Shown one piece after another: positions 19,237 through 35,363 of a stretch of DNA of 64,000 nt. Numbering within the stretch: the first letter of the stretch is position 1; each line of letters begins with the position of its first letter. The notes under the pieces were generated by a model. That model was not told the origin of the DNA. It did no database searches and was given only the letters and a program-made list of their open reading frames with translations. The position numbers were made by a program, and so were the translations under genes. This stretch comes from Gammaproteobacteria bacterium HGW-Gammaproteobacteria-1 (lineage in GTDB: Bacteria > Pseudomonadota > Gammaproteobacteria > Thiohalomonadales > Thiohalomonadaceae): positions 55,601-119,600 of the forward strand of contig PGZL01000009.1 in the NCBI GenBank assembly GCA_002840095.1. Reading direction: 5' to 3'.

Positions 19237-20682
19237 ATGTCGTTTGCGGATATTTTCCTGCTGGTACCGGCCTCACCGCTGTTGTCCGGCCTGATCTGGC
19301 TGGTGGTCGCCGTGGGCCTGCTCTATCTGGCGCGGCCCGCCGCGCACCTCGCCATCGCGGCGGCCTCGCGCCTGCTGCACCACGCCTGCAAGCTGGCCGC
19401 CCGTTCGGTGATGCTGGCCGAGCAGCGCCTCAAGCAGCGCAACAACGAGGTCCTGCTGGCCGCCGGCCGCGAAGCGGCGGAGCGCATCATCGAGCGTGAA
19501 TTCGAGCGCATCGACGCCTCGGTGCGGCGCGACCTGGCCGAATATCCCGCCCTGCAACGGCAGATGAGCGAGGCCATCACCCGCCTGGAGCAGGATTACC
19601 ACGACAGCAGCGAGGTGCCGCCGGAACCGCCGGCCTGGGCCAAGGTGGTGGACGCCGTGGCCAAGATTGCGCCCAAGGAGCCGGTGGTGGGCGAGATCCT
19701 GCAGGACATCCACGATTCCATGGTGCGCGCCCAGCGCGCCGCCATCGAGCAGTACCGCAACGACAACAGCAAGCGCCACCGCATCCTCAGCCGCATGATG
19801 CCGCTGTGGCGCCGCGTGGCGCAGGTGCTGGGCGAGATGGACAAGCGCGTCAACCGCCTGCTGGAACGCTCCACCGCCATCGATCGCCACATGACCTCCT
19901 ACGAGGACATCCTCAACCGCAGCCCGCGCGCCGAGCGCATGCTGTCGTCGTCATCCCTGACCCAGTTCTTCATTGCCGGCTTCGTACTGGCCATCGCCAT
20001 CGGCGGTGCGGTCATCAACTTCCACCTCATTGCCCGGCCGATGCAGGAAATGGTGGGCGGCAGCAGCTACATCATGGGCTACAAGGCGGCCAATATCGCG
20101 GCCCTGGTGATCATCCTGGTGGAGGTGGCGATGGGGCTGTTCCTGATGGAATCGCTGCGCATCACCCGCCTGTTCCCGGTGATCGCGGCGCTGGACGATC
20201 GCCTGCGGGTGCGCATGATCTGGGTGGCCTTCGCCTTCCTGCTGGCCCTGGCCAGCATCGAGTCCGGCCTGGCCTTCATGCGCGAGAAACTGTCGCAGGA
20301 CGACGCCAGCCTGGTGGCCTCGCTGGTGGGCCAGGGCGAGGCGGGCGCAGTGGCCGCCAACCTGTGGATCACCACGGCGGCGCAGATGGGCATGGGCTTC
20401 ATCCTGCCCTTCGCCCTGGTCTTCGTCGCCATTCCGCTGGAGTCCTTCATCCACTCCTCGCGCACCGTGCTCGGGCTGCTGGCGCAGGGGCTGCTGCAGC
20501 TGCTGGCCTTCCTGCTGCGCCTGACCGGCAACGTGTTCCGCCACGGCGGCAACATGCTGATCCGTCTGTACGACCTGCTCATCTTCCTGCCGCTGTGGCT
20601 GGAGGAGCGCCTGCGTGCGCGCGGCAAGCCGGCGGAGATGGCCGTGACGGACGATGCCGTGGCTACGGAGGGTCGGTCATGA
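19237..20682 (+). CDS. Polytopic membrane protein of unknown function
   Basis: 481 aa from the ATG preceded by AAGGAGGTGGCT. Residues about 10-40 form a first membrane segment; 40-235 are a long charged, coiled-coil-like cytoplasmic or periplasmic stretch (MLAEQRLKQRNNEVLLAAG); 245-470 contain about five further hydrophobic helices (FFIAGFVLAIAIGGAVINF, ALVIILVEVAMGLFLM, WVAFAFLLALASIESGLAF). The stop overlaps the start of the next gene by 4 bp (ATGA), so the two proteins are probably made together and may form a complex. No family recognised. Confidence 0.8.
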   Translation: MSFADIFLLVPASPLLSGLIWLVVAVGLLYLARPAAHLAIAAASRLLHHACKLAARSVMLAEQRLKQRNNEVLLAAGREAAERIIEREFERIDASVRRDLAEYPALQRQMSEAITRLEQDYHDSSEVPPEPPAWAKVVDAVAKIAPKEPVVGEILQDIHDSMVRAQRAAIEQYRNDNSKRHRILSRMMPLWRRVAQVLGEMDKRVNRLLERSTAIDRHMTSYEDILNRSPRAERMLSSSSLTQFFIAGFVLAIAIGGAVINFHLIARPMQEMVGGSSYIMGYKAANIAALVIILVEVAMGLFLMESLRITRLFPVIAALDDRLRVRMIWVAFAFLLALASIESGLAFMREKLSQDDASLVASLVGQGEAGAVAANLWITTAAQMGMGFILPFALVFVAIPLESFIHSSRTVLGLLAQGLLQLLAFLLRLTGNVFRHGGNMLIRLYDLLIFLPLWLEERLRARGKPAEMAVTDDAVATEGRS

Positions 20683-21611: not shown

Positions 21612-22697
21612 ATGTTCAACAACTACATAGCGCTGTCGCACGGCGCACTGGGGCCCTACCGCGTGCTGGTGGTGGACGATATGGCCACCAACCGCTTGAT
21701 GGTCAAGGCTATTCTCGAAGCGCAGGGCTACCAGGTGATCGAGGCCGAGAGCGGCGAGCAGGCCATCACCCTTATGCTGGAGAGCAATTACGATGCCGTG
21801 GTGCTGGACGTGCTGATGCCCGGCATGAACGGTTTCGACGTCTGCACCCACATCCGTCACCTGCACGGCCAGGAATTCCTGCCGGTGATCATGCTCACCA
21901 GCCTGGGCAGCCCGGACGACGTGGCGCGCGGTTTCGACTGCGGCGCCACCGATTTCGTGACCAAGCCCTACAACAACATCGAGCTGGTGGCGCGGGTGAA
22001 GTCGGCGGCGCAGAAGAAGCGCCTCATCGACCGCCTGGACGATACCGAGTCGGTGCTGTTTGCCCTGGCGCGCATGGTGGAGGCCAAGGACCAGAACACT
22101 CGCGACCACTGCGACCGCCTGTCCCACATGGCGGTGGTGTTCGGCCGCAGCCTGGGTTACGGCTTCGAGGAACTGGACGCCCTGCGCCGCGGCGGCATCC
22201 TGCACGACATCGGCAAGCTGGGCATACCCGATGCGGTGCTGCTCAAAAGCGGCCCCCTGAGCGACAGCGAATGGATGATGATGCGCCAGCATCCGGCCAT
22301 CGGCGCCGAACTGTGCCGTCCGCTACGCACCATGAAAAAGACCGTCGACATCGTGCATTTTCACCACGAACGCTGGAACGGCAGCGGCTACCCGGAAGGG
22401 CTGCACGAATACGAGATACCCGAACTGGCGCGGGTGTTCCAGATCGTCGACGTCTATGACGCCCTGTCCACCGAGCGTCCTTACAAGCCCGCTTTCGCCA
22501 AGGACAAGGTCATCGAGATCATGGAGGCGGAGGGCGCCAAGGGCTATTGGGATCCCGACCTGCTGGAGCGCTTCCTGCACATCGTCCACGACAGCCCGGA
22601 AAAGCTGGAACTGCCGGCGGACGCCCACCAGGATGCCAGCGCGCGTATTTTTGACAGCGTCATGAAGCGCGAGCTGCAGGACTGGGACCGGCGCTGA
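21612..22697 (+). CDS. Response regulator with HD-GYP c-di-GMP phosphodiesterase domain
   Basis: 361 aa with GGAGGAGG upstream of the ATG. Residues 15-135 are a receiver domain (VLVVDD; phospho-acceptor Asp66 in VVLDVLMPGMNG; Lys in VTKPYNN). Residues 150-340 are an HD-GYP domain with HDIGKLGIP and HHERWNGSGYPEG, the residues needed for c-di-GMP hydrolysis. It is the first gene of the chemosensory operon, 1 nt before the first cheW-like gene. CheA phosphorylation would be expected to control degradation of c-di-GMP, the opposite sign to a WspR-type output. Confidence 0.93.
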   Translation: MFNNYIALSHGALGPYRVLVVDDMATNRLMVKAILEAQGYQVIEAESGEQAITLMLESNYDAVVLDVLMPGMNGFDVCTHIRHLHGQEFLPVIMLTSLGSPDDVARGFDCGATDFVTKPYNNIELVARVKSAAQKKRLIDRLDDTESVLFALARMVEAKDQNTRDHCDRLSHMAVVFGRSLGYGFEELDALRRGGILHDIGKLGIPDAVLLKSGPLSDSEWMMMRQHPAIGAELCRPLRTMKKTVDIVHFHHERWNGSGYPEGLHEYEIPELARVFQIVDVYDALSTERPYKPAFAKDKVIEIMEAEGAKGYWDPDLLERFLHIVHDSPEKLELPADAHQDASARIFDSVMKRELQDWDRR

Positions 22698-22698
22698 T

Positions 22699-23238
22699 AT
22701 GACCGAGGCGGTAACCAACCAGCCCGGGCCGGGCATGCTGCTGCTGTTCCGCTGCGCCGGGGTGGATTTTGCCCTCGACGTGGACAGCGTCGAGCGCGCC
22801 TCCTGGCTGGTGGCGGCGCAGCCTCTGCCCGAGGCCAGCGACTACGTCGTCGGGGTCACCGCCCTGCAGGGCGAGTCCGTCCTGCTGGTGGACCTGGCCC
22901 GGCGCCTGGGCCTGGAGGGTGCCGCGCAGTACGGCCTGCACACGCCCCTGGTGTGGTGCCGCGGCGGCGGCCGCCGCGCGGCACTGGCGGTGGACGAAAT
23001 CGAGGGCGTGGCGGCCGCGGCGGTGAACGGCGCCGACATGAGCGAACTGCTGTGCCAGGGGCGGGCGCCGCTGTTGGGTGCGGTGCGCCACGACGGCCGC
23101 ACCTGGCTGCTGCTCGATCCGGCGCGGCTGCTGGCCTTCGATCTGGCGCAGGAGGCAAGCGAACTCCGGCTGGATCGGGACGTCCTGCAGCGTTGGCTGC
23201 TGGCGGGCGAAGCCGCGCAGGACGACGCCGATGAATGA
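22699..23238 (+). CDS. cheW: CheW-like adaptor 1
   Basis: 179 aa, a single CheW domain (about 12-150) coupling receptors to CheA. The signature region reads VVGVTALQGESVLLVDLARR. In typical CheW this is NLRG; here the Arg used for receptor/CheA contact is Gln57. It sits directly before cheR, the position of WspB, and overlaps cheR by 8 bp. The changed residue suggests altered receptor coupling or a scaffold role. Confidence 0.85.
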   Translation: MTEAVTNQPGPGMLLLFRCAGVDFALDVDSVERASWLVAAQPLPEASDYVVGVTALQGESVLLVDLARRLGLEGAAQYGLHTPLVWCRGGGRRAALAVDEIEGVAAAAVNGADMSELLCQGRAPLLGAVRHDGRTWLLLDPARLLAFDLAQEASELRLDRDVLQRWLLAGEAAQDDADE

Positions 23239-24709
23239 ACGCGCCCCAGGCCTGCCGCCGGCCCAGATGGAGTGGCTGCTGCAACTGGTGCGCCGCCGCA
23301 CCGGCATCGTGCTGCAACCCTACCAGCTGGATAACCTGCCGCTGATCGTGCAGGGCGCCTGCGAGCGTTTCGGCTACCGCGATGCCGACGCCTACCTGCG
23401 CCACCTGGACGAAGGCGTGGCCGGTACGCCGGAGCTGGAATACCTGGTGGCGCGCATCACCGTCGGCGAGAGCTATTTTTTCCGCGACGACGAACAGCTG
23501 CGCTTTTTGCGCGAGGCCTGGCTGCCGGAGGTGATCGACCGCAAGTACCGCAGCGGCGATCGCTCCCTGCGCATCTGGAGCGCCGGCTGTGCCGCCGGCC
23601 AGGAAATCTACACCCTGGCGATTCTTCTCAGCGAGCTGCTGCCGCAGCCGGAAAGCTGGAGCCTGCACCTGCTCGGCACCGACATCAACACCGATTCCCT
23701 CAGCCAGGCGATCCGCGGCCAGTACACCGCCTGGTCCATGCGCGCCACCGACGCCGGGCTGCGCGCGCGCCACTTCGAGCAGCTGGGCGACGTGTACCGC
23801 ATCCGGCCGCAGCTGCGCGAGCTGGTGAAGTTTTCCTATCTCAACCTGCTGGAAGACAACTTCCCCACCATGCTGTCGGGCACGGCGGCCATGGACCTGA
23901 TTCTGTGCCGCAATGTGTTCATCTATTTCGATGCGGCGCTGATCCCGCCGGTGATGCAGAAATTTCACGACAGCCTGCTGCCCGGCGGCTACCTGATGCT
24001 CGGTGCCTCCGACCTCACGGCGGAGCCGATCCCGGGACTGGAGCTGCACCACTGGGGCAACACCTTCTGCTACCGCCGCGGCGACGGCCTGTCCGTCGCC
24101 GTGGCGGAGACGCGTCCCGCCGCCGCGCCGCTCTATGTACCACCGCCCGCACCGGATCCGGCGCCCGCGGCGGTGGCGGAGCCACCACCGCCCGCACCGC
24201 GTCCGATCCGCTCGCCCTATCCCGAGGTGATCCGGCTGCTGCGTGCGGAGCGCTGGGATGCCGTGGTGAGCAAGGTGGACGAATTGGCGGCACGTGACGG
24301 CATGGATGCGGAGCTGGCCCAGCACAAGGCCAAGGCCCTGGCCAACCTGGGCCTGATGGAGGACGCCGCGCGGGAAGGCGAGGCCAGCCTGGCCATGGCG
24401 CCGCTGGACAAGCATACCTACCTCATCACGGCGCTGATCATGGTGGAGCTGGGCAAGCTGGACAAGGCGCAGGAAGCCCTGCGCAAGGCGCTGTTTCTCG
24501 ACTCCAATTTCGTCGAGGCCCATTTCCAGAACGGCCTGCTGCAACTGCGCATGGGTGAGCGCAAGGCCGGGCTGCGCAGCCTGAGCAACGCACTGGAACT
24601 GGCCGAGCGGCTCGACCCGCAACGCCAGGTGCACAACGCGCCCGGCCTGGTGTTCGGCCGCCTGGCCGAGATCCTGCGCAAGGAACTGCATATGTACCAG
24701 GAGGAGTGA
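23231..24709 (+). CDS. cheR: CheR-type chemoreceptor methyltransferase with C-terminal TPRs
   Basis: 492 aa starting at an ATG inside the end of cheW. Transfers methyl groups from S-adenosylmethionine to receptor glutamates. The N-terminal helical domain contains ITVGESYFFRD; the SAM fold shows IWSAGCAAGQE, LLGTDINTDSL and ILCRNVFIYFD. A Pro-rich linker (about 340-385) leads to TPR-like helices (about 390-485, AKALANLGLMEDAAREGEAS). This CheR-TPR layout matches WspC. No receptor-binding pentapeptide is seen at the C-terminus of the local MCPs, so the TPRs may mediate receptor recognition. Confidence 0.93.
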   Translation: MNERAPGLPPAQMEWLLQLVRRRTGIVLQPYQLDNLPLIVQGACERFGYRDADAYLRHLDEGVAGTPELEYLVARITVGESYFFRDDEQLRFLREAWLPEVIDRKYRSGDRSLRIWSAGCAAGQEIYTLAILLSELLPQPESWSLHLLGTDINTDSLSQAIRGQYTAWSMRATDAGLRARHFEQLGDVYRIRPQLRELVKFSYLNLLEDNFPTMLSGTAAMDLILCRNVFIYFDAALIPPVMQKFHDSLLPGGYLMLGASDLTAEPIPGLELHHWGNTFCYRRGDGLSVAVAETRPAAAPLYVPPPAPDPAPAAVAEPPPPAPRPIRSPYPEVIRLLRAERWDAVVSKVDELAARDGMDAELAQHKAKALANLGLMEDAAREGEASLAMAPLDKHTYLITALIMVELGKLDKAQEALRKALFLDSNFVEAHFQNGLLQLRMGERKAGLRSLSNALELAERLDPQRQVHNAPGLVFGRLAEILRKELHMYQEE

Positions 24710-24725
24710 CTGGGAAATGCCGTGG

Positions 24726-24940
24726 GGTCCGCAAATGAACGCCAATGAACGCAAATTTGAGGTGAGCCTGAACACATCGATTGAATCTCGCCAAGGCGCC
24801 CAGCACGCAAAGAAAACCGCTGGCGAGGCAGTTGCGGAGGATCGGGTTCACTGCTGGGTGCAACAGTTTGTTTTTCTTGGCGTCTTGGCGAGAGTGACGG
24901 TTGTTAAATTTGCGTCCATTGGCGTGTATTTGCGGACTGG
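24726..24940. repeat. Nested double inverted repeat (element D) between cheR and cheW
   Basis: The outer arms pair 24727-24758 (TCCGCAAATGAACGCCAATG) with 24906-24938 almost perfectly. Inside, TCTCGCCAAGGCGCCCAGC near 24786 pairs with TTCTTGGCGTCTTGGCGAGA near 24872-24892. The outer family recurs at 27272 and the inner family at 35373 and 61919, so one element appears nested in another. No coding sequence is supported here. Confidence 0.85.
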
Positions 24941-24954
24941 TTGAGGTTTTCGAG

Positions 24955-25524
24955 ATGAACGAACACGACGCATCTGACAAGGCCTTCGCGCGCATGCCGC
25001 GCGGCATCGACGAACGTGCGGTGCTGCTGGATCGGCTGCGCCTGCTCGGCGCGGAGGTGGACGCCCCGGCGGAGGCGCAGGCGGGCGAGCCTGCGGTGTT
25101 GTTCCGTCTCGGTGCCGAGGAACGTTACGCCCTGAGCTACCGCCATGCCGAGGAGATCGTGCAGCGTACGGCGCTGGCGCCGGTACCCTGCACCCCGCCC
25201 TACGTGGCGGGGGTGATGAACCTGCGCGGCGAACTGGTGACGGTGCTCGATCTCAAGCAGCTGTTCCGCGCCCTGCCCGCCGAATACGACGCGCAGGCGC
25301 CGATCCTGGTGGTGGCGCTCGGTGCGGTCACCGTCGGCCTGCGGGTCGACGAGGTGCTGGGGCAGATCGACATCGACCCGGCGCGGCTGGAACCGCCGCT
25401 GCCGTCCGACGGGGTGCGCAACCTGGCCTGGGTGGCCGGCATCCACGACGGCACCGTTACCGTGCTCGATGCGGCGGCGTTGTTGTCGGGCAGCGATTTG
25501 GTGGTGGACGAGCGGGTGGGTTAA
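24955..25524 (+). CDS. cheW: CheW adaptor 2
   Basis: 189 aa from the ATG at 24955, since earlier in-frame codons lie in the hairpin repeat. One CheW domain with the canonical YVAGVMNLRGELVTVLDL, retaining the Arg lost in CheW 1. Its position after CheR-TPR matches WspD. Likely the main scaffold between the MCPs and CheA. Confidence 0.92.
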   Translation: MNEHDASDKAFARMPRGIDERAVLLDRLRLLGAEVDAPAEAQAGEPAVLFRLGAEERYALSYRHAEEIVQRTALAPVPCTPPYVAGVMNLRGELVTVLDLKQLFRALPAEYDAQAPILVVALGAVTVGLRVDEVLGQIDIDPARLEPPLPSDGVRNLAWVAGIHDGTVTVLDAAALLSGSDLVVDERVG

Positions 25525-25545
25525 TCGGCCCACACAGGGCTACAC

Positions 25546-25672
25546 AAATTTCAGAATTCAAAGTTCAAGATTCAACATGGAGCATATCTTGAGTTTCGAG
25601 TTTCGAGTTTCGAGTTTCGAGTTTCGAGTTTCGAGTTTCGAGTTTCGAGTTTCGAGTTTGAATTTTGAATCC
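25546..25672. repeat. Ten-copy GAGTTTC heptamer array in an inverted-repeat element (element E)
   Basis: Ten tandem 7-bp units GAGTTTC occupy 25591-25660 (the last is GAGTTTG). The flanks pair AGAATTCAAAGTTCAAG with TTTGAATTTTGAATCC. The same heptamer recurs at 41724-41772. Located between cheW 2 and the globin MCP. Confidence 0.9.
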
Positions 25673-25701
25673 GAACGGCAGTGGAACATGAGGTCTGGCC
25701 T

Positions 25702-27255
25702 ATGAACGAACAAAAAGACAATGCCGCCGTCGCGGCAGCCGCCGCGGCGGTGGGCATCGATGCGGAGGAGTGGCAGCGGCGCCAGCGCTTCGTCGGTTTT
25801 GGCAAGGACGACGTGGCGCTGCTGCGCGACATGGCCGACGTCGTCGCGCGCCATGCCGATGCGGTGGTGGATCGCTTCTACGACAACATCGAGCACTTCC
25901 CCGATCTGGTGAACCTGATCCGCGATTCGGGCTCCAGCATGGAGCGCCTCAAGGCCACCCAGCGCCAGTATCTGCTGGAGCTGTTCGCCGGCGATTACGG
26001 CGCCTCCTACCTGGAGCGGCGCCTGCGCATCGGCGTGGTGCACCACCGCATCGGCCTGGACCCGCGTTTTTATCTCGGCAGCTACAGCATCTACAGCCAG
26101 GCGCTGCTGCCGCTGGTGCGCAAGCGCTATCCCTGGAACCGGCAGCGGCAGGAGCGCGCGGCGCAGGCCATCACCAAGCTGCTGTCCCTGGACGCGCAGC
26201 TGGCGGTGGACACCTACATCCACCGCCTGATGCACAGCCTGGACGAGGTGAGCCTGTCGCGGGACGAGGTGGATCGCCGCGTCGCCGGTTACCGCCGCTT
26301 CATCGCCAACGTCGCCACCGGCGATCTCACCCGCCGCATCGAAGCGGTGGGCGACGACGAGCTGGGCAGTCTGGGCGATCAGCTCAACGACATGGTGCAC
26401 AAGCTGGCCAGCATGGCGCGCTCGGTGACCGAGGCGGGCAGCTCGATGATGGTGGCGGTGGAACAGTTGCAGCAGTCGGTGAGCTCGCAGTCCGCCGGCG
26501 CCGCGCAGCAGGCAAGCGCGGTGAGCGAAACGGCCACCACCCTGGAGGAGATCCGCGTCACCTCCAACCAGACCCGCGACAAGGCGCGCAGCCTGGGCCA
26601 GGCCGCCGAGCGCACCCGCGAGGAAGGCGAGCGCGGCCTGCAGACCGTGCAGGGCACCATCGCCGCCATGCAGGACATCCGCGTCAAGGTGGAATCCATT
26701 GCACGCAACATCCTCGCTCTGTCGGAACAGACCCAGCAGATCGGCGACATCACCGGCCTGGTGAGCAATATGGCACAGCAGCTCAAGATCCTCGCCCTCA
26801 ACGCCTCCATCGAGGCGAGCAAGGTGGGCGAGGCGGGCAAGGGCTTTGCGGTGGTGGCGAGCGAGGTGCGCGAACTGGCCGAGCAGTCACAGGAGGCGAC
26901 CACCCAGATCCGCACCATCCTGCACGACATCCAGCGCGCCACCGACCGCTCGGTGATGGCCACCGAGGAAGGCATCAAGGGCGTGGACGAGGGCATGCGC
27001 CTGGTGGACCAGGCGGGCACCGCCATGCGCGATCTGACCCAGGTGATACGCGAGACCTCGCTGGCCGGCCAGCAGATCGTGGCGGCGGTGGGCCAGGAGG
27101 CCTCCGGCATCGATCAGATTGCCGCGGCGATGAAGGACATCAACGGCGCCACCAAGCAGTTCCTCGCCGCCACCCAACAGACCAAGCAGACCGCTCTCAG
27201 CCTGGGCGACATCGCCGGCGCCCTGCGCGCCAGTGCCGCCGTGTACAAGGTGTGA
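25702..27255 (+). CDS. Globin-coupled sensor methyl-accepting protein (soluble aerotaxis-type MCP)
   Basis: 517 aa from the ATG at 25702 (GAGG upstream; a GTG start at 25681 is possible). No membrane segment, so cytoplasmic. Residues 15-175 form a protoglobin domain: VVHHRIGLDPRFYLGSY matches the HemAT proximal-histidine motif, making His114 the likely heme ligand. A HAMP-like stretch follows (about 190-240, ATGDLTRRIE), then the signalling hairpin (LALNASIEASKVGEAGKGF, EVRELAEQSQE). The expected ligand is O2, possibly NO or CO. It occupies the receptor place in a Wsp-ordered operon, where WspA would be a membrane protein. Confidence 0.92.
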   Translation: MNEQKDNAAVAAAAAAVGIDAEEWQRRQRFVGFGKDDVALLRDMADVVARHADAVVDRFYDNIEHFPDLVNLIRDSGSSMERLKATQRQYLLELFAGDYGASYLERRLRIGVVHHRIGLDPRFYLGSYSIYSQALLPLVRKRYPWNRQRQERAAQAITKLLSLDAQLAVDTYIHRLMHSLDEVSLSRDEVDRRVAGYRRFIANVATGDLTRRIEAVGDDELGSLGDQLNDMVHKLASMARSVTEAGSSMMVAVEQLQQSVSSQSAGAAQQASAVSETATTLEEIRVTSNQTRDKARSLGQAAERTREEGERGLQTVQGTIAAMQDIRVKVESIARNILALSEQTQQIGDITGLVSNMAQQLKILALNASIEASKVGEAGKGFAVVASEVRELAEQSQEATTQIRTILHDIQRATDRSVMATEEGIKGVDEGMRLVDQAGTAMRDLTQVIRETSLAGQQIVAAVGQEASGIDQIAAAMKDINGATKQFLAATQQTKQTALSLGDIAGALRASAAVYKV

Positions 27256-27271
27256 GGCTGAAGACGGCAAT

Positions 27272-27379
27272 GGAGTCCGCGAATGAACGCAAATGGACGC
27301 AAATATGGCGCACTCTCCATAGGGCGGGCCGTGCCCGCCGGTGTTCATTCGCTTCATTTGTGTCCATTCGCGGACTGAC
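27272..27379. repeat. Intergenic inverted repeat (element F, TCCGCGAATGAACGC family)
   Basis: GGAGTCCGCGAATGAACGCA at 27272 pairs with CATTTGTGTCCATTCGCGGA ending near 27374. A smaller perfect stem GGCGGGC-CGT-GCCCGCC lies inside. It fills the gap between the globin MCP and cheA. Same family as the outer arms of element D. Confidence 0.85.
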
Positions 27380-27395
27380 TGAGGTGAAGGGATAA

Positions 27396-29633
27396 ATGGA
27401 CCTGGATCCGGAGATCATCCAGCAGCTGCTCGCCACCTTCGCGCTGGAGATGGACGAGCAGCTGCAGCAGGTGACCGACCAGCTGTTGCAGCTGGAGAAG
27501 GGCCTGCCGCCGGAAGAGTGCGCACTCGCCTACGACACGGTGTTTCGTGCCGCCCATAACGTGAAGGGTGCGGCACGGGGTATCGGTGCCGAGGCGGTGG
27601 GCGAACTGGCGCACCAGCTGGAAACCCTGTTCAGCCAGCTCAAGCGCGGCGGCGGTGCGCCGCCGCCGGCGCTGGTGGACGTGTCGCTGGCGGTGCTGGA
27701 CGGCATGCGTCGCATCTACGGCGGCTGGTCCATGGGCGAGCCGCTGCCGGCGCGGCTGGAGAAGGAGTACCAGGCCCTGTTGCAGCGTCTGCAGGCGGTG
27801 GAGATGCCGGCGGCGGCCGCCACACCGCCGGCCCCTGTCGCCGCGCCGCCGGTACCGGCCCCGGCCGCGGCGCCGGAAATTATCGACCCGCTGCCCGCCG
27901 GCGGCGAGGTGTTGCGGGTGGAGCTGGCGCGCATGCGTACCGTATCGGCCCTGGCCGAGGAGCTGGAGGTGACGCGGGCGGAGATGCTCGATCACCTGGC
28001 ACGGGTGCGGCAGATGGAACGACGCCTGACGCACCTGGCGCAGGTATGGCAGCGGGTGCATCCGCTGTTCGAAATGGCGGCGGGCAGCGACGACGGCGAG
28101 CTGTATGGGGCGCTGCGCGAACAGGACGAACTGGTGGGCAGCCTGCGCGGCCTCGGCACGGACATCCACAAGGGACTGCGCGGCAGCACGCGGCGCTTTC
28201 ACCAGCTGTCCGACGCCCTCCAGCACAACGTGCGCATGCTGCGCCTGGTGCGGGTGTCCAACCTGCTGCGTCCGCTGATGCGTTCGGTGCGCGACATGGC
28301 GCGCGAACTGGGCAAGGACATCGATTTCGAGGTGAGCGGCGACGAGGTGGAGATCGACCGCGTGGTGCTGGACAGCATCAAGGATCCGCTCACCCATCTG
28401 CTGCGCAACGCCATCGATCACGGCATCGAGACACCGGCCCGGCGCCAGGCCGCCGGCAAGGCGCCGCGCGGAAAGGTGCAGCTGAAGGTAAGCGCGACCG
28501 GCTCGCGCATCCAGGTACGGCTGGAGGACGACGGCGCCGGCATCGATGCCGATGCGGTGGGCCGCCTGGCGGTGCAGAAGGGCGTGCTGAGCGCGGACGA
28601 ATTGCGCACCCTGGATCGCGCGCAGCGCATGGCGATCATTTTTCGCCCCGGCTTTTCCAGCAAGGAGCAGGTGACGAACCTGTCGGGCCGCGGCGTGGGG
28701 CTGGACGTGGTGAAGGCCAACATCCAGGCCCTCAAGGGCCAGGTGCGGGTGGACAGCGAGCCGGGCCGCGGCTCCACCTTCCTGCTCGACCTGCCGCTGA
28801 CCCTGGCCACCGATCAGGGGCTGGTGGTGCGCGCCGCCGGCGCCGACTATCTGATTCCGGAGACGGCGGTGGAGCAGGTGCTGGAACTGGGCCGCGACGC
28901 GGTGCGCACGGTGGAGGCGAGCCAGGTGGTGCTGTACCAGGGCCGCCCGGTGCCGCTGCGCGACCTCGGCGCCATCCTGGAGCGCGGCCCGGCGCTGCTG
29001 ACCAATCCGGAGCGCCTGCCGGTGGTCGTCGTGTCCCACGGCTGGCGCATGGCGGCGCTGCTGGTGGACGACGTGGTGCGCGATCGGGAGATCGTGGTGA
29101 AGCGGCTGGGCTGGCCGCTCAAGGCGGTGCGCAATGTGGGCGGCGCGGCGCTGACCGGCGCCGGCGGCATCATGATGGTGCTCAATCCCGCCGACCTGGT
29201 GGCCTCGGCCCTGGGGGCGGCCACCGCCGCCCTGGGCACGGCGGCGGCGGCAGCACCGGCGCCGCGTGCCGCACCGCACGTGCTGGTGGTGGACGACTCC
29301 ATCACCACGCGCATGCTGGAGCGCAGCATCCTGGAGAAGAACGGCTACCGCGTCACCGTCGCCACCCACGGCCGCCAGGCCTGGGACCTGTTGCAGAGCA
29401 ACCGTTTCGACCTGGTGGTGAGCGACGTGCAGATGCCGCTGATGGACGGCATCGAACTGACCGGCAAGATCAAGCAGAGCGACAGCTTCCGCCACATCCC
29501 GGTGATCATCGTCAGTTCCCTGGGCAATGAGATCGACAAGCGGCGCGGCATCGAGGCCGGCGCCGACGCCTACGTGGTGAAGGCGCAGTTCGAGACCGGC
29601 GCGCTGCTGGAAATCGTGCGGAGGCTGGTGTGA
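27396..29633 (+). CDS. cheA: Hybrid CheA histidine kinase with C-terminal receiver
   Basis: 745 aa. The Hpt domain carries phospho-His54 in AAHNVKGAAR. An Ala/Pro linker replaces a clear P2 domain. The dimerisation helices and HATPase follow (LRNAIDHGIETPARR, DDGAGIDAD, GRGVGLDVVKA), then the CheW-like P5 domain (about 465-600) and a receiver domain (about 628-745) with Asp677 in VVSDVQMPLMDG. The CheA-REC fusion is the WspE/alternative-function type. The attached receiver may act as a phosphate sink or modulate transfer to the separate HD-GYP, CheB and CheY receivers. Confidence 0.95.
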   Translation: MDLDPEIIQQLLATFALEMDEQLQQVTDQLLQLEKGLPPEECALAYDTVFRAAHNVKGAARGIGAEAVGELAHQLETLFSQLKRGGGAPPPALVDVSLAVLDGMRRIYGGWSMGEPLPARLEKEYQALLQRLQAVEMPAAAATPPAPVAAPPVPAPAAAPEIIDPLPAGGEVLRVELARMRTVSALAEELEVTRAEMLDHLARVRQMERRLTHLAQVWQRVHPLFEMAAGSDDGELYGALREQDELVGSLRGLGTDIHKGLRGSTRRFHQLSDALQHNVRMLRLVRVSNLLRPLMRSVRDMARELGKDIDFEVSGDEVEIDRVVLDSIKDPLTHLLRNAIDHGIETPARRQAAGKAPRGKVQLKVSATGSRIQVRLEDDGAGIDADAVGRLAVQKGVLSADELRTLDRAQRMAIIFRPGFSSKEQVTNLSGRGVGLDVVKANIQALKGQVRVDSEPGRGSTFLLDLPLTLATDQGLVVRAAGADYLIPETAVEQVLELGRDAVRTVEASQVVLYQGRPVPLRDLGAILERGPALLTNPERLPVVVVSHGWRMAALLVDDVVRDREIVVKRLGWPLKAVRNVGGAALTGAGGIMMVLNPADLVASALGAATAALGTAAAAAPAPRAAPHVLVVDDSITTRMLERSILEKNGYRVTVATHGRQAWDLLQSNRFDLVVSDVQMPLMDGIELTGKIKQSDSFRHIPVIIVSSLGNEIDKRRGIEAGADAYVVKAQFETGALLEIVRRLV

Positions 29634-29654
29634 AGGAAATCATGGAACGGCACT

Positions 29655-29753
29655 TCCAACGCAGAGGCGCAGAGGCGCAGAGGAAGCAGAAAAACACACC
29701 CATTCGCTCTCTTTCTGTTCTCCGCGCCTCTGCGCCTCTGCGTTGGGTTTGGA
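29655..29753. repeat. Intergenic inverted repeat (element G, CGCAGAGGCGCAGAGG family)
   Basis: TCCAACGCAGAGGCGCAGAG at 29655 pairs with CGCCTCTGCGCCTCTGCGTT and GGGTTTGGA ending at 29753. It fills the gap between cheA and cheB. Same family as elements C, I and J. Confidence 0.9.
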
Positions 29754-29787
29754 ATTGTCATGGCGCTGTAAGCGGCCGGGAGGAAGC

Positions 29788-30849
29788 GTGATACGGATAC
29801 TGATCACCGAGGATTCCGCCGTGGTGGCGCTGCTGCTCAAGGCCATCTTCGAGCAGGAGGCCGATTTCGAGGTGGTGGGCCACGCGCGCAACGGGCGCGA
29901 AGCGGTGACGCTGGCGGCGCAGTTGCAGCCGGACCTGATCACCATGGACATCCGCATGCCGGTGATGGACGGCTTCGAGGCGACGCGCGAGATCATGTCG
30001 ACGCGGCCGGTGCCCATCGTGGTGGTGAGCTCCAGCGTCGACGACGAGGAGCTGCGCATTACCTTCCGCGCGGTGGAGGAGGGCGCGCTGGCGGTGATTG
30101 AAAAGCCGCGCGGTTTCACCCATCCCGATTTCGAACAAATCCGGCGCGAACTGGTGACCACGGTGCGCGCCATGGCCGAGGTGAAACTGGTACGGCGGCG
30201 GCGCTGGACGGCGCCGGAGGCGGCGGCGGTCATGGCCGAGCCGGTGGCCGACATGCGTCGTTGCGATCTCATCGCCGTCGGTTCGTCCACCGGCGGGCCA
30301 CAGGCCCTGCGGATGCTGCTGGCCGGGTTGCCGCGCGATCTGCGCGTGCCGCTGGCGGTGGTGCAGCACATCGGCCGCGGTTTCATCCAGGGCCTGGTGG
30401 ACTGGCTCAACAGTTACAGCGGGCCGCAATGCAAGGTGGCGCAGCACGGCGAGGAACTGCTGCCGGGGCAGGTGTATTTCGCGCCGGACGATAGGCACTT
30501 GCAGGTGCAGCGCATCGGCCCCAGCATGGTGGCGGTGCTGAAGGATGCGCCGCCGGTGGACAACATCCGTCCCTCGGCCACGCCGCTGTTCCGTTCGGTG
30601 GCCGCCTGCTGCGGCGGCCGCGCCGCGGGGGTGGTGCTGACCGGCATGGGCGCCGACGGTGCCGAAGGCCTGCTGGAGATGCGCCGCGCCGGCTGCGCCA
30701 CCCTGGTGCAGGACGAGGAAAGCAGCGTGGTCTACGGCATGCCCGCCGCCGCCTGCGCCCTGGGCGCGGCGGAGCGGGTGCTGCCGCTGGAACGCATCGC
30801 ACCGCAGCTGTGCCGTCTGGCCGGCGGCGCGCCGGGGGCGGCGGCGTGA
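29788..30849 (+). CDS. cheB: CheB receptor methylesterase with receiver domain
   Basis: 353 aa from a GTG start preceded by GGGAGGAAGC; an upstream in-frame ATG (29743) lies inside the hairpin repeat. The receiver has Asp54 in LITMDIRMPVMDG. The esterase domain has the Ser167 region GSSTGGPQALR, His in VQHIGRGF and Asp in TGMGADGAEGL. It removes receptor methyl groups (adaptation), phosphorylated by CheA. Its stop overlaps the next start as GTGA, beginning a run of four coupled genes. Confidence 0.95.
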   Translation: MIRILITEDSAVVALLLKAIFEQEADFEVVGHARNGREAVTLAAQLQPDLITMDIRMPVMDGFEATREIMSTRPVPIVVVSSSVDDEELRITFRAVEEGALAVIEKPRGFTHPDFEQIRRELVTTVRAMAEVKLVRRRRWTAPEAAAVMAEPVADMRRCDLIAVGSSTGGPQALRMLLAGLPRDLRVPLAVVQHIGRGFIQGLVDWLNSYSGPQCKVAQHGEELLPGQVYFAPDDRHLQVQRIGPSMVAVLKDAPPVDNIRPSATPLFRSVAACCGGRAAGVVLTGMGADGAEGLLEMRRAGCATLVQDEESSVVYGMPAAACALGAAERVLPLERIAPQLCRLAGGAPGAAA

Positions 30850-31229
30850 AGCAGCAGCTGCCCGGGCTGTGGCAGGCGTTTTTCGCCGAGCTGACGGAGC
30901 GGCTCGGACGCGTGCGCCGCGATCTGGCGCAGGCGCAGGATGCGACGCTGTTCGACCGGCTGCACCAGGAGTTCGACACCCTGCACGGCGCGGCGCGGGC
31001 GGTGGATTGTGTCTGTCTGGAGCGCAGCAACCGGCGTCTCGCCGAGTACGCGCGCCAGCTCAGGCGGCGCGACGCGCCGCTGACGGAGGGGCGCGCGCTG
31101 CTGGAGCGTGCCGTCGATTTGGGACTGGGTTGCGCCGCGCATGGCCGTTGTTGCGAAGACTGTCCTTCGCTGGCGGCGATGCCCGAACTGATGGCTGAGC
31201 TGGACCGGGCCTTGGGAGAAAAGCAATGA
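30846..31229 (+). CDS. Cys-rich degenerate Hpt-like protein
   Basis: 127 aa from a GTG overlapping the cheB stop. Residues 36-75 align by eye with the Hpt helix of the CheA in this operon: EFDTLHGAAR against AAHNVKGAAR. In that alignment the phospho-His is Asp44 and the following Lys is His47, so it should not carry phosphate on His. It has six cysteines (55, 57, 96, 102, 103, 106; GCAAHGRCCEDC), unusual for a cytoplasmic signalling protein and suggestive of metal or redox binding. Its place between cheB and cheY implies a regulatory role in the pathway. No named family recognised. Confidence 0.7.
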   Translation: MKQQLPGLWQAFFAELTERLGRVRRDLAQAQDATLFDRLHQEFDTLHGAARAVDCVCLERSNRRLAEYARQLRRRDAPLTEGRALLERAVDLGLGCAAHGRCCEDCPSLAAMPELMAELDRALGEKQ

Positions 31230-31585
31230 CAACGATACTGGTGGTGGACGACAGCGCGACTTCGCGCCTCTTGTTCAAGGCGCACATGCCCAAGGAGGGA
31301 GGCTATCGCGTGGTCGAGGCGGCCAACCTGGCGCAGGCGCTGGAGCGCGCGGCGGCGGAGCAGCCCGATCTGATGTTCCTCGACTACAACATGCCGGACC
31401 AGAACGGCGTGGAGATCGCCCACAGCCTGCGCGCGGCGGGGGTGGTCGCCACCTGTTTCCTGCTCACCGCCAATACCCAGCAGAGCGTCCTCGCCTCGGC
31501 GCAGGAGGCGGGCATGCGCGGCGTGCTGGAGAAGCCCATCACCCGTGCCAAGCTGGAGCAGGCGCTGGCCGAGGCAGGACTGTGA
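31226..31585 (+). CDS. Single-domain CheY-like response regulator
   Basis: 119 aa, a lone receiver domain: TILVVDDSATSR (acid pocket), phospho-acceptor Asp53 in FLDYNMPDQNG, Thr in LLTANTQ and Lys in VLEKPITRAK. Overlaps the Hpt-like gene and the cheC gene by 4 bp each. With no flagellar genes nearby, its target is probably the adjacent PAS-GGDEF or another protein rather than the flagellar switch; CheC is the likely phosphatase. Confidence 0.92.
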   Translation: MTTILVVDDSATSRLLFKAHMPKEGGYRVVEAANLAQALERAAAEQPDLMFLDYNMPDQNGVEIAHSLRAAGVVATCFLLTANTQQSVLASAQEAGMRGVLEKPITRAKLEQALAEAGL

Positions 31586-32214
31586 AACTCAGCGAACTGC
31601 AGCGCGACGCCCTGGGCGAGATGGCCAACATCAGCGCCAGCCGCGCCGCCAAGCAGTTGTCGGCCCTGCTCGGCGACAGCATCGACATCACCGTGCCGCG
31701 GGTCGAGCTGCTGCCCCTGCCCGCGCTGCGCGAGCGGCTGAGCGCAGACGGCGACGGCACCATCGCCTGCGTCTACCAGGCGCTGTCCGGCGTGTTGCAG
31801 GGACGGGTGCACCTGATGTTCCACAACCGCGACAGCAAGGCGCTGATCCACGCCCTGGTGGGCGACGCCGGGCCGATGCTGGCCGATGCCCTGCGCGAAT
31901 ACGAACACGAGGCGATGACCGAGGTGGGCAACATCATCATCGCCACCTTCGCCGCCATGCTGGCCGATCTGCTGGGGGCGGAGCTGCGCCTGTCGCTGCC
32001 CTACTACAACGAGGGCAGTGTGGAGGAACTGATGTTCAACCTGCCGGCGGCCGAAGATGCGGCGCTGATGGTGGTGGTGGTGATCGAGACGGTGCTGCGC
32101 GCGGCGCAGCGCGACGTGTCCGGCACCCTGATGGTGGTACTCAAAGTCCATTCGGCGGAAGAGCTGCTGTCCCGCATCGACGCCATGCTGCAGCAGATCG
32201 GCGTGGAGGCATGA
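31582..32214 (+). CDS. cheC: CheC-type CheY-P phosphatase
   Basis: 210 aa from GTG. Both CheC active-site signatures are present: E-x2-N in GEMANISAS and in TEVGNIII, each followed after exactly 22 residues by Pro (ITVP and LSLP). Both sites therefore look functional. It dephosphorylates CheY-type receivers. CheC is common in Firmicutes, Archaea and Thermotoga and less usual in Gammaproteobacteria, which mostly use CheZ. No cheD partner is in the window. Coupled to CheY upstream and the GGDEF gene downstream. Confidence 0.9.
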   Translation: MKLSELQRDALGEMANISASRAAKQLSALLGDSIDITVPRVELLPLPALRERLSADGDGTIACVYQALSGVLQGRVHLMFHNRDSKALIHALVGDAGPMLADALREYEHEAMTEVGNIIIATFAAMLADLLGAELRLSLPYYNEGSVEELMFNLPAAEDAALMVVVVIETVLRAAQRDVSGTLMVVLKVHSAEELLSRIDAMLQQIGVEA

Positions 32215-33185
32215 ACGTGGAGGCGCTGCTCGACTTCCGCCTCATCTGCGAACAGCTGCCCATCGGCCTGTTCGTGTTGAACCGCGACGACCGCATCTCC
32301 TATTGGAACGACTGGCTCGCGGACAAGAGCGGCATCACCCCGGCGCAGGCGCTGGGACGGCGGCTGGAGGACCTGTATCCCGGCTGGCGCAACGAACGCT
32401 TCCAGTGGGCGGTGGAGCAGGCCATCGATTACAACATTCCCCATGTACTGTCCCAGGCCCTCAACCGTCTGCTGCTGCCCATCAAGGTGCCGTTGTCGGA
32501 ACGCCACGGCGTGGCGCTGATGCAGCAGAAGGTGAGCGTCATGCCGCTGCCCGGCGGCGACAGCGGCCATGCGCTGGTGATCATCCAGGACGTGACCGAT
32601 ACCGTGGTGCGGGCGCAGGCGGCCAACGACGTGATGCAGCGCTTCCGCGAGGTGAGTCTGCGCGACCCGCTCACCAACCTGTTCAACCGCCGCTTCATGT
32701 GGGAGTGGCTGGCGCAGGAACTGAAAAGCGCCGATCGCAACAACGCGCCGCTGGCCTGCCTGATGCTGGACATCGATCACTTCAAGCCGCTCAACGACAG
32801 CCTGGGTCACCAGCGCGGCGACGAGATTCTGCAGGGCTTCGTCGCCACCGTCGCCACCCAGCTGCGCGAGTCGGACATCCTGGTGCGCTACGGCGGCGAG
32901 GAATTCGCCGCCTTCCTGCCGCACTGCACCCTGCGCCACGCCATCATCACCGCCCAGCGTATCCGCCAGCAGGTGCGCGGCCAGGCCATCGCCGGCCTGA
33001 CGCCGGGTCAGGTGACCTGCAGCATCGGCGTGGCCCTGTACGACCCGCAGCTGCCCGGCACCGGCGCCGAGGAACTGCTGCGCGAAGCGGATCGCTGCCT
33101 GTACGAGGCGAAACACAAGGGGCGCGATCGCGTCTGTCCGGCCACCGAGGGCGAGGCCTGTGACGGCGACGACGATTACAACTGA
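32211..33185 (+). CDS. PAS-GGDEF diguanylate cyclase
   Basis: 324 aa from an ATG overlapping the cheC stop (ATGA). Residues 8-130 form a PAS-like sensor (LFVLNRDDRISYWNDW). The GGDEF domain (about 145-310) has DPLTNLFNRRF, LDIDHFKPLND and an active GGEEF at 228-232, with an intact product-inhibition site RESD five residues before it. It should make c-di-GMP. It has no receiver, unlike WspR, so coupling to the pathway must be through protein contacts or its PAS domain. It is the counterpart of the HD-GYP gene at the other end of the operon. Confidence 0.93.
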   Translation: MNVEALLDFRLICEQLPIGLFVLNRDDRISYWNDWLADKSGITPAQALGRRLEDLYPGWRNERFQWAVEQAIDYNIPHVLSQALNRLLLPIKVPLSERHGVALMQQKVSVMPLPGGDSGHALVIIQDVTDTVVRAQAANDVMQRFREVSLRDPLTNLFNRRFMWEWLAQELKSADRNNAPLACLMLDIDHFKPLNDSLGHQRGDEILQGFVATVATQLRESDILVRYGGEEFAAFLPHCTLRHAIITAQRIRQQVRGQAIAGLTPGQVTCSIGVALYDPQLPGTGAEELLREADRCLYEAKHKGRDRVCPATEGEACDGDDDYN

Positions 33186-33194
33186 GGACTGGGT

Positions 33195-35363
33195 ATGCGT
33201 TTTTTGAGCGGTTTGCGGCTCCAGCAGAAGTTGCTGTTGATGCTGTTCTTTCCCGTGTTCGGCGTGGTGGTGCTGTCCCTGGGCGCGACCCTGGATCGCT
33301 ACTGGGCCGACAGGGAACTGGCGCGGATGGAGCGCCTCACCCACCTGGCCGGCGCCGTCAGTGCGGCGGTGCACGAATTGCAGCGCGAGCGCGGCCGGGC
33401 CGCGCCCTATCTCGCCTCGGGCGGCAGCCGCTTCGGCGACGAATGGCGCGAGCAGCAGGCGCGCAGCGACGCCGCCATCGCCGCCCTGCGTGCCTGGCCC
33501 TATCATCGCCGCGAGGCCGGATTCGCCGCGGGCATCGAAGGTGCGCTGCAAACCGCCGCGCTGGCGGAACGGCGTGCCGCCATCACCGCGCTGGCCGTCT
33601 CACCCGACGCCGCCATCGCCGACTATTCGGCGCTCAATGGTGCGCTGCTGGAGGTCATCGGCCGGTTGCCGCAGGACGGCGGCGGTGATCTCGCGGTGAC
33701 ATTCAATGCCTATGTGGATCTGTTGTGGGCGGTGGAGCAGGCGGGTATCGAGCGCGCCCAGTTGGGCGCGGTGTTTACCGCCGACCGGATTACGCCGGCG
33801 CAGCGCGAGGCCCTCGCCGAGACAGTGATGGCGCAGCGCATCCACCTGCGATTGCTGGAGCGGCAGTTGCCGCCGGCGCTGCGTGACGCCCTTGCCGCCG
33901 CCGGCAAGAGCGGGCAGGGGGTGGAGGAACTGCGCCGGCGTGCCTTGCAGGCGGCACCCAACCGTACCCTCGGTGTCGACGCCGCCACCTGGTTCGATAC
34001 GGCCTCGGCGCGCATCGACGCCCTCGATGCCGTGGCCGCCGGCATGGCGCAGCACCTGGCCGAGGAAAGCGCTCGGCGCGGCGGCCGGGCGGCGGCAGGA
34101 CTGCTGGCCACGGTGCTGCTGACCGTATTCGGCATCGCCGCCACCCTGTTCCTGGCCTGGCACATCAGCCGCTGGATCACCCGCCAGGTGCGCCAGCTGC
34201 TGGAGGTGCTGCACGACCTGTCGGGCGGGCTGCTGGCGCGGCGCGTCCAGGTGGAAGGGGCCGACGAGTTTGCCGAGATCGGTTCTGCGGTGAATCGCAT
34301 GGGGCAGCAGTTGCAGGAGTCCGGCGAGCGCGAGCGCAATCGCTTCGAGCAGTGGCAGCGGCAGGCGCAGGAGTTCCGCAACGTGGTGGACCGCATCGGC
34401 GGGCGCCTGCGGCTCATTGCCTTCGGCGACCTCACCCAGCAGGTGGAGGCGGCCCATGACGACGCCGCCCTGGCCGAGCTGGTCTACCACGTCAACATGA
34501 TGACCAACGGCCTGCGCGAACTGACGCGGGAAATGATCCAGGCCACCGGTGACATCGCCGCCAGCGTCGCCCAGTTGCAGACCGCCACCTCGTCGCAGGC
34601 CGCCGCCGCGGCGGAACAGGCCGCCGCCGCCAACCAGACCATGACCACGCTGGAGGAGATCCGCGTCATCTCCGGCCAGACCCGCGACAAGGCCCAGGCC
34701 CTGGGCGAGACCGCCGACCGCGCCCTGGCCGAGGGCGATGCGGCGCGGCGCAGCATCAACCGCTCGGTGGACGGCATGGAACTGATCCGCAACCGCGTCG
34801 AAACCATAGGCGAGCGCATCCAGAAGCTCACCGAGCGCACCCTGCAGATTGAGAGCATCAATACCGCCGTGGCCAACGTGGCGCAGCAGTCGCGCATGCT
34901 GGCGCTCAATGCCGCCATCGAGGCGGCCAAGGCGGGCAAGGCCGGCAGCGGTTTCGCCGCCGTGGCGCTGGAGGTGCGGCAGTTGTCCGATCAGTCCAGC
35001 CGCGAGACGGTGGAGGTGGAGAAGATCCTGAAGGAGGTGCGCCTCGCCATTCGCGACGTGGTGCAGGGGGTGGAGGAGGGCACGCGCGAGATCGTGCAGG
35101 CGCTGCATTCGGTGGAGGACACCGGCGACGCGCTGGTGCGCCTGTCCGACGTGGCGCAGGAAACCGCCATTGCCTCCAAGCAGATCGTGGCCGCGGTGCG
35201 GCAGGAGGTCACCGGCGTCAACCAGCTGGTGATGGCGGTCAACGAAATCAACAAGGCCACCGGCCAGTTCGTCGACACCACCCGCCAGACGGAAAGCGCC
35301 GCCGCCAATCTGGGCCGCATCACCCGCTCCCTGCAGGACCACGCCGGGGTCTACGAGGTGTAA
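33195..35363 (+). CDS. Membrane methyl-accepting protein with nitrate/nitrite-sensing-like domain
   Basis: 722 aa. Transmembrane segment 1 (about 12-35), periplasmic domain 40-295 with the NIT-type opening (AVHELQRERGRAAPYLAS), transmembrane segment 2 (about 297-320), HAMP (about 325-375), a second HAMP-like stretch (GDLTQQVEA) and the signalling region (LALNAAIEAAKAGKAGSGF, LEVRQLSDQSSRET). NIT domains respond to nitrate and nitrite in characterised cases. It ends the chemosensory operon, 9 nt after the GGDEF gene, giving the pathway a second, periplasmic input. Confidence 0.9.
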   Translation: MRFLSGLRLQQKLLLMLFFPVFGVVVLSLGATLDRYWADRELARMERLTHLAGAVSAAVHELQRERGRAAPYLASGGSRFGDEWREQQARSDAAIAALRAWPYHRREAGFAAGIEGALQTAALAERRAAITALAVSPDAAIADYSALNGALLEVIGRLPQDGGGDLAVTFNAYVDLLWAVEQAGIERAQLGAVFTADRITPAQREALAETVMAQRIHLRLLERQLPPALRDALAAAGKSGQGVEELRRRALQAAPNRTLGVDAATWFDTASARIDALDAVAAGMAQHLAEESARRGGRAAAGLLATVLLTVFGIAATLFLAWHISRWITRQVRQLLEVLHDLSGGLLARRVQVEGADEFAEIGSAVNRMGQQLQESGERERNRFEQWQRQAQEFRNVVDRIGGRLRLIAFGDLTQQVEAAHDDAALAELVYHVNMMTNGLRELTREMIQATGDIAASVAQLQTATSSQAAAAAEQAAAANQTMTTLEEIRVISGQTRDKAQALGETADRALAEGDAARRSINRSVDGMELIRNRVETIGERIQKLTERTLQIESINTAVANVAQQSRMLALNAAIEAAKAGKAGSGFAAVALEVRQLSDQSSRETVEVEKILKEVRLAIRDVVQGVEEGTREIVQALHSVEDTGDALVRLSDVAQETAIASKQIVAAVRQEVTGVNQLVMAVNEINKATGQFVDTTRQTESAAANLGRITRSLQDHAGVYEV

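Follow-up and report, generated by a model that had tools for sequence, protein, structure and literature searches.

How is a chemosensory operon wired that encodes, side by side, an enzyme predicted to make the second messenger cyclic di-GMP (c-di-GMP) and one predicted to break it down? The question is raised by twelve genes, all on the + strand, that domain assignment by Pfam and a check of open reading frames place at positions 21612-35363 of the window, i.e., the whole 64,000-nucleotide stretch of contig PGZL01000009.1 from Gammaproteobacteria bacterium HGW-Gammaproteobacteria-1. In systems of this kind, receptors of the methyl-accepting chemotaxis protein (MCP) type form arrays with CheW and the kinase CheA, CheR and CheB provide adaptation, CheC is a phosphatase of phosphorylated CheY (CheY-P), HD-GYP proteins hydrolyze c-di-GMP, and GGDEF proteins synthesize it. 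An initial annotation named eleven of the genes, all of which are confirmed by Pfam, and missed the twelfth, which lies between CheB and CheY and encodes a protein resembling the P1 (histidine phosphotransfer, Hpt) domain of CheA without its phosphoacceptor histidine (pseudo-P1 hereafter). The composition of the operon and the family it belongs to are virtually certain. As judged from sequence, it is a real and conserved system, a variant of the Wsp-like pathways with alternative cellular functions (ACF) that is common, in whole or in part, to several environmental bacterial groups. We consider it probable that this ACF-class, Wsp-like system has one CheA feeding two opposed arms, a hydrolase with a receiver domain (REC-HD-GYP) and a PAS-GGDEF cyclase controlled by CheY.

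The evidence that the gene set is conserved comes from its relatives. Aligned sequences of 13 globin domains served as the query for a scan of GTDB contigs; of the 100 relatives found, we kept the best 80. Of these loci, 36 (L113-L146, L148, and L152) lie in operons composed of CheW, CheR, CheW, globin-MCP, CheA, and CheB, some cut by contig ends and one (L138) with no CheB match. The other 44 lie outside such operons, three of them (L150, L176, and L183) with other che genes nearby. Recurrence in 36 operons rules out a chance clustering of genes. The hosts include Gallionella, Sulfuricella, Hydrogenophilus, and Mariprofundus, several of which are bacteria of oxic-anoxic boundaries. When domain hits were assigned by reading frame, REC-HD-GYP was found in 26/36 operons, at the front in 14 and internally in 12 (only its HD part in L137, at a contig end); its position thus varies while its membership in the operon is constant. 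CheC, CheY, and PAS-GGDEF occur together in 14/36 operons, and NIT-MCP in 11/36. Both outputs are present in 13 of these globin operons, one per GTDB species, which makes the two-output idea of the initial annotation more than a guess. A full set, with HD-GYP, globin-MCP, NIT-MCP, CheA, CheB, the Hpt-like protein, CheY, CheC, and PAS-GGDEF, is found in seven loci (L117, L119, L125, L126, L127, L130, and L135), including metagenome-assembled genomes (MAGs) of Sulfuricella denitrificans (L125) and Hydrogenophilus (L135). Both ends are visible in 26 loci, and of these, 13 of the 18 operons with HD-GYP have CheC vs. one of the eight without (Fisher p 0.009), a value that is only a guide since the species are related. 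For this test, ten of the 36 operons were dropped because an end is cut off (L116, L118, L120, L121, L122, L132, L137, L141, L146, and L152), and L145 was kept though only ~1 kb is visible past its CheB.

Outputs of other kinds occur as well. Four operons (L114, L115, L116, and L140) end in REC-REC-GGDEF, with neither HD-GYP nor CheC seen (the front of L116 is cut off), the Mariprofundus/Zetaproteobacteria loci L133 and L148 combine HD-GYP with other GGDEF proteins, and the contexts of selected matches revealed further globin-MCP operons with other outputs. Closer to the window, a genome of the same genus (G016, locus L021) contains the operon, its individual genes being 62-86% identical; the Hpt-like gene is absent, and NIT-MCP is truncated where the contig ends. 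In the same order, represented by 20 genomes of one family, CheC-like matches were obtained in ten; of 369 genomes of the class, 15 had a CheC match at E 1e-20 and 56 a CheA match at E 1e-90 (own genome counted in all three). Separately, a MAG labeled Phycisphaerae (Planctomycetota) has an HD-GYP/globin-MCP operon on one of its contigs (L136), which reflects either transfer between phyla or misbinning of that contig.

The two c-di-GMP enzymes are potentially opposed, as initially annotated, and their active-site residues are conserved, apart from a change of Asp to Asn in the HHExxD motif of most HD-GYPs. The hallmark of HD-GYP phosphodiesterases is the HD pair with the residues HHExxDGxGYP, and paired ExxN sites are the mark of CheC phosphatases. 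In REC-HD-GYP, residues D66, T96, and K118 of the receiver, H198-D199, and GYP are kept in 26/26 sequences (window counted here and in all residue counts below), as are H166, HHE, and G of the HD-GYP part; the motif reads HHExxN in 21, the window among them, and HHExxD in five. The cyclase keeps GGEEF and the inhibitory RxxD site (I-site) in 15/15. CheY has D53 and K103 in 16/16 and T81 in 15/16, while CheC has E and N at both ExxN sites in 15/15. Conservation is equally strict for H54 and the receiver D677 of CheA (37/37) and for D55, S168, and H195 of CheB (33/33).

How, then, would signals reach these enzymes? The globin receptor has no transmembrane-like segment and is thus soluble, as initially proposed. 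It has the Protoglobin domain (Table 1) and conserved heme-type His114 of globin-coupled sensors, this proximal-type His and Tyr60 being kept in 41/41 sequences, and would bind a gas, O2 or nitric oxide (NO), through heme. The NIT-MCP receptor has two transmembrane-like segments; that it would respond to nitrate/nitrite is suggested only by the Pfam name NIT. From hairpin to C terminus, both receptors measure 143 residues, or ~20 heptads per arm by our own count, presumably the 40H class, and these equal arms are consistent with mixed arrays. The initial annotation predicted that synthesis and degradation of c-di-GMP are controlled separately. This is not supported, since it would need arm-specific kinases and the operon holds none. 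With a single CheA and equal receptor arms, it is more likely that one array pools the inputs and that both outputs draw on one phosphate source. As a side observation, the globin-MCP frame is 644-675 amino acids long where HD-GYP sits inside the operon (L117-L120, L122, L126, L127, L130, L135, L138, L139, and L142), vs. 507-537 in most others, which suggests an extra segment in the former, the starts of these frames being unverified.

The most surprising part of the system is the histidine-less P1 family. In the window, the gene overlaps each neighbor by 4 bases, as do the genes at every junction from CheB to the cyclase. The protein is predicted to adopt a helical bundle fold like that of CheA P1. 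Its AlphaFold2 model (pLDDT 90.8) best matches the CheA P1 structures 1i5n and 3kyi in a VIA comparison, both with Z 16.4 (rmsd 2.4 and 1.9 over 123 and 119 residues, respectively), where values under ~13 may reflect only an arrangement common to helical bundles. In a Foldseek search with the model, no structure reached E 0.001, the best match (0.013) being a CheA P1, and a sequence search of the PDB with the pseudo-P1 profile found nothing at E up to 1. Pfam Hpt is matched by 13/18 members at E up to 1, the best at 4e-6. In a profile alignment (probability 87.7), D44 aligns with H54 of the cognate CheA, and GAAR is kept. Asp replaces the phosphoacceptor His of the Hpt motif HxxKG in 21/21 sequences, in which Q41, E42, D44, and R51 are invariant and QE[FL]D is always found; a diverged copy outside this count (L152) has QEYD, keeping the Asp, and Ile at R51. 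A true Hpt is thus ruled out at the canonical position. One helical turn before D44, H40 is His in 20/21 sequences and Tyr in one, and an unusual phosphoacceptor there is unlikely. A resemblance of QE[FL]D to the phosphatase motifs of CheZ and Spo0E is a tentative lead; the CheZ catalytic pair fell out of line in the register tried by eye.

Two known proteins help to place this family (here and below, statements on published work refer to the portions of each paper available to us). FimL from Pseudomonas aeruginosa is a precedent for a histidine-less P1 protein, being a stand-alone protein that resembles the N-terminal part of CheA, has another residue in place of the phosphoacceptor His, and is tied to a second-messenger output (PMC3019171). 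However, it has Gln for His, resembles ChpA residues 1-563, and acts on cAMP (PMC3019171), whereas pseudo-P1 is ~130 amino acids long, has Asp and QE[FL]D, is encoded in the operon, and is sometimes fused to CheY. The CheA3/CheY6 pair of Rhodobacter sphaeroides, whose P1-CheY6 complex (3kyi) is a top fold match, likewise has a P1-fold partner of CheY and a dedicated removal of CheY-P, but the P1 of CheA3 carries a phosphorylated His, and the phosphatase activity resides in a kinase-like protein (PMC2924250).

The distribution of pseudo-P1 follows that of the globin receptor in part. In 398 sampled genomes of the phylum, 21 match the pseudo-P1 profile at E 1e-5. The nine strong matches all have Asp; the 12 weaker ones all have His, as HSLKG or HSIKG, ten of them in open frames of at least 735 amino acids, as expected of CheA. 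The nine genomes with strong matches are also the only ones to match globin-MCP over its full length at E 1e-80, three further genomes in that search matching only the MCP part. Three of the nine (the window's genome, G508, and G578) had fed the profile and six had not (four families). Within the globin operons, pseudo-P1 is present in 18/36, 17 found by BLAST and L152 by profile; the BLAST query had missed a diverged copy (L109) that the profile found, and a profile search of all 36 loci added only L152. In eight related loci, pseudo-P1 and CheY are fused in one frame. In the same-genus L021, 100 bp separate CheB and CheY where pseudo-P1 is missing (16374-16473, reversed strand), perhaps a deletion scar.

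We propose that binding of O2 or NO to the heme of the globin receptor, combined with the signal from the NIT receptor, would set the activity of CheA. Phosphorylated CheA would phosphorylate the REC-HD-GYP hydrolase, a transfer that we regard as quite likely. It would also phosphorylate the free CheY, and CheY-P, with CheC as its partner and phosphatase, would regulate the PAS-GGDEF cyclase in trans, in the manner of a "split WspR"; by a slight margin, we favor such an action of CheY/CheC on the cyclase. Without a canonical phosphate site, pseudo-P1 would dock on CheY as a CheA P1 does and shorten or gate CheY-P. We give an even chance to its acting on CheY and find it doubtful that it is a CheY phosphatase. 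In this scheme, one kinase would drive both the making and the breaking of c-di-GMP, as a coupled switch or pulse and not as separately addressed pathways, coupling being likely with only one CheA present. A cyclase arm that responds fast, CheY-P being rapidly turned over, could for example be paired with a slower hydrolase arm, arm-specific removal of phosphate by CheC being the likely substitute for arm-specific kinases. Possible, rather than probable, is the broader reading that these operons form a new ACF class, a "globin two-arm c-di-GMP system" with the histidine-less P1 family as CheY-P phosphatase or gate and a c-di-GMP pulse triggered by O2/NO. On that reading, and just as tentatively, the family would be defined by [HY]QE[FL]D[ST]-x(3)-[AG]-x-R, and would target response regulators, CheY foremost, while the pulse would take place in hosts living in redox gradients.

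Could the operon instead be a Wsp system of the usual kind whose receptor has been exchanged? For wspA to wspF, we use a letter-to-gene assignment that is partly presumed. Published Wsp clusters run from wspA, the receptor, to wspF, and the 794 clusters surveyed, restricted to beta- and gammaproteobacteria, have only WspR or WspH as outputs (PMC8552884). Wsp is an ACF-type system with a membrane receptor that has a four-helix bundle (4HB) periplasmic domain, according to a review of c-di-GMP sensing (PMC8846402). The initial annotation held that the locus copies Wsp. This is true of the parts from CheW to CheB (two CheW, CheR-TPR, CheA-REC, and CheB), which are shared along with a c-di-GMP output and the ACF class (PMC8552884, PMC8846402), and the operons ending in REC-REC-GGDEF also speak for a Wsp system. 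It is not true of the receptor's position, its type, or the output, and thus the operon is not Wsp in the strict sense. The receptor here follows the second CheW instead of coming first (PMC8552884), and soluble globin and membrane NIT receptors stand in place of a 4HB membrane receptor (PMC8846402). WspR is absent, as initially annotated, and so is WspH, there being no REC-GGDEF or REC-kinase gene besides CheA, while REC-HD-GYP, pseudo-P1, CheY, CheC, PAS-GGDEF, and NIT-MCP are added. In a tree of CheA, most rows from globin operons stand apart from a larger non-globin group, with some mixing (L074, L082, L112, and L080) and with deep forks open; the tree supports no statement on the ancestry of the outputs. 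A mere exchange of receptors is hence very improbable. Alternatively, CheY could act on a flagellum or pili in aerotaxis, with the c-di-GMP enzymes as accessories. Globin-MCPs with experimental support, such as HemAT, Atu1027, and others, are aerotaxis receptors (PMC13401364). The HemAT type shares with our receptor the fusion of globin to an MCP signaling domain and the conserved proximal-type His and Tyr, but consists of globin, linker, and signaling domain, whereas the protein here also has HAMP and belongs to an ACF-type operon with c-di-GMP enzymes (PMC13401364). Similarly, in the putative aerotaxis cluster Cc-5 of Corallococcus coralloides, a cytoplasmic MCP that serves as oxygen sensor has a chemosensory cluster to itself, but this receptor is a PAS plus Bac_globin protein, two monooxygenases are present, and "CheC" is absent from the main text of that paper (PMC6194562). 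Against an aerotaxis role stands the ACF mark, CheR-TPR together with multidomain regulators (PMC3447774), which is present here as CheR-TPR and the REC-HD-GYP regulator, the CheA tree having contained no named ACF references. Since published CheR-TPR clusters contain REC fused to GGDEF, EAL, Hpt, a "metal-dependent phosphatase," and others, a regulator of the REC-HD type in them is not unheard of (PMC3447774). Moreover, the CheY gene overlaps that of CheC in the window, and relatives have CheY fused to pseudo-P1. CheW-domain matches number 14 in the genome, three in the operon and 11 on six other contigs; the operon is thus probably one of several chemosensory systems, others of which could serve motility. 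A motility function is therefore quite unlikely.

A further alternative, which we rate as unlikely but ahead of aerotaxis, is that CheY, CheC, and pseudo-P1 form a phosphate sink that drains signaling to HD-GYP and CheB, the cyclase being ruled only by the ligand of its PAS domain and merely cotranscribed. Such a sink is compatible with the presence of both phosphatase sites in CheC, with a CheY that has no output domain, and with the REC present on CheA itself; R. sphaeroides CheY6 with the bifunctional CheA3 has been modeled as a sink (PMC2924250). What argues against it is the company that CheC keeps elsewhere. In 27 short loci around CheC matches, obtained from two genome searches (L038 and L041 overlap), four are in chemosensory operons (L009, L010, L027, and L028). 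A CheY-like REC stands before CheC or is fused to it in 26/27 (not detected for the 327-residue frame of L038), a PAS protein follows it in 26/27 (not detected in L032), and GGDEF is detected in 16/27, some of the remainder being truncated. CheY-CheC-PAS triads and REC-CheC fusions outside this operon were seen in L011-L020 and L029-L041. Since such triads occur in loci with no visible chemosensory operon (e.g., L011/L022 and L013/L024), the PAS protein goes with CheY-CheC and not with the array. The module is thus also found independently of the array, with PAS as its constant third part, which favors an action of CheY/CheC through PAS.

A scheme in which one CheA feeds both arms, with pseudo-P1 acting on CheY, thus remains our preferred reading, and several observations weigh against it. 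HD-GYP is lacking in 10/36 operons (the front of L116 is cut off) and CheC in 22/36 (some truncated), so that both modules are dispensable. In L030 and L039, the third gene of the triad encodes a PAS protein with weak similarity to a kinase core, not to GGDEF. As for pseudo-P1, it is missing, by profile search also, from nine of the 27 operons visible past CheB (L113, L114, L115, L116, L129, L131, L140, L144, and L145), the window's same-genus relative being among those without it, and its perfect match with the globin-MCP in the 398 genomes is therefore not general. It also occurs where no CheY-CheC follows (L124, L133, L134, L136, and L148), and CheY thus cannot be its sole partner. The eight fusions to CheY fall in one clade of the CheA tree and possibly reflect a single event, and the model of a fusion is poor (pLDDT 74, pTM 0.50) and gives no support for docking. 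Finally, the deep forks of the CheA tree are not resolved, and one of its rows (L111), wrongly extracted, forms a very long branch.

The layout of the operon is given in Table 1, in which the starts of CheW 2, globin-MCP, CheB, and the cyclase (24955, 25702, 29788, and 32211) are the likely ones. The core order is CheW-CheR-CheW-MCP-CheA-CheB.

Table 1. Genes of the chemosensory operon (window positions)
Gene product	Position	Strand	Domain evidence
REC-HD-GYP response regulator, predicted c-di-GMP phosphodiesterase	21612..22697	+	Pfam HD_5 E 3e-29, REC 5e-28
CheW 1	22699..23238	+	Pfam CheW E 7e-22
CheR methyltransferase with C-terminal TPR	23231..24709	+	Pfam CheR E 6e-44, TPR_11 8e-6
CheW 2	24955..25524	+	Pfam CheW E 2e-30
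Soluble protoglobin-HAMP-MCP receptor	25702..27255	+	Pfam Protoglobin 2.5e-42
CheA-REC hybrid kinase (Hpt, ATPase, CheW, REC)	27396..29633	+	Pfam
CheB methylesterase with REC	29788..30849	+	Pfam CheB E 2e-58
Histidine-less CheA-P1-like (pseudo-Hpt) protein, 127 amino acids	30846..31229	+	Pfam Hpt E 3e-4, below gathering score
CheY, single REC domain	31226..31585	+	Pfam REC 6.5e-23
CheC, predicted CheY-P phosphatase, two ExxN sites	31582..32214	+	Pfam CheC 5e-16
PAS-GGDEF diguanylate cyclase without own REC	32211..33185	+	Pfam GGDEF 4e-44
Membrane NIT-HAMP-MCP receptor	33195..35363	+	Pfam NIT 5e-41

The genes are closely spaced or overlapping, save for four junctions of 140-245 bp (24710-24954, 25525-25701, 27256-27395, and 29634-29787), vs. 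a maximum of 38 bp in the same-genus species. Small palindromic repeats (two related to each other, near 24908 and 27274, and one more at 29656-29746) or a tandem array occupy these long junctions, suggestive of an invasion of the operon by small repeat elements. The array is a perfect 7-bp repeat, GAGTTTC, of 9.9 copies at 25591-25659, ~40 bp upstream of the globin-MCP start, where a variable length could change expression. A promoter scan found none vs. 0.9 expected, and terminator-like sites numbered 12 vs. 6.5; neither was used as evidence. Outside the operon, an upstream open frame of 500 amino acids (19180-20682) is without any Pfam match at E 0.1. At 36834-38192, downstream of a gene for a DinB-type polymerase, a single protein joins a tRNA_edit (YbaK-like) domain to one of the HDOD type, a combination that was not previously familiar to us.

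As to novelty, the gene set is described nowhere in the open-access full-text literature that we searched, which leaves most subscription journals outside its coverage. The initial annotation's view that no system of this exact composition has been described thus holds for that literature, with the amendment that the locus is a member of a recurring family and not unique. A comparative genomics study of Gallionella and Sideroxydans mentions globins, che genes, and GGDEF proteins, and in the portion available the operon is not described (PMC3770913).

If our reading is true, direct sensing of a gas by heme would be linked to c-di-GMP via a chemoreceptor array. One kinase would serve synthesis as well as breakdown, whereas the published Wsp survey, in the part available, has single outputs only (PMC8552884). 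The recurring set would then offer a clear test case of one chemosensory kinase acting on two enzymes with opposite effects on a second messenger, and the P1 family that lacks the histidine would be a concrete new candidate for the control of CheY phosphorylation.

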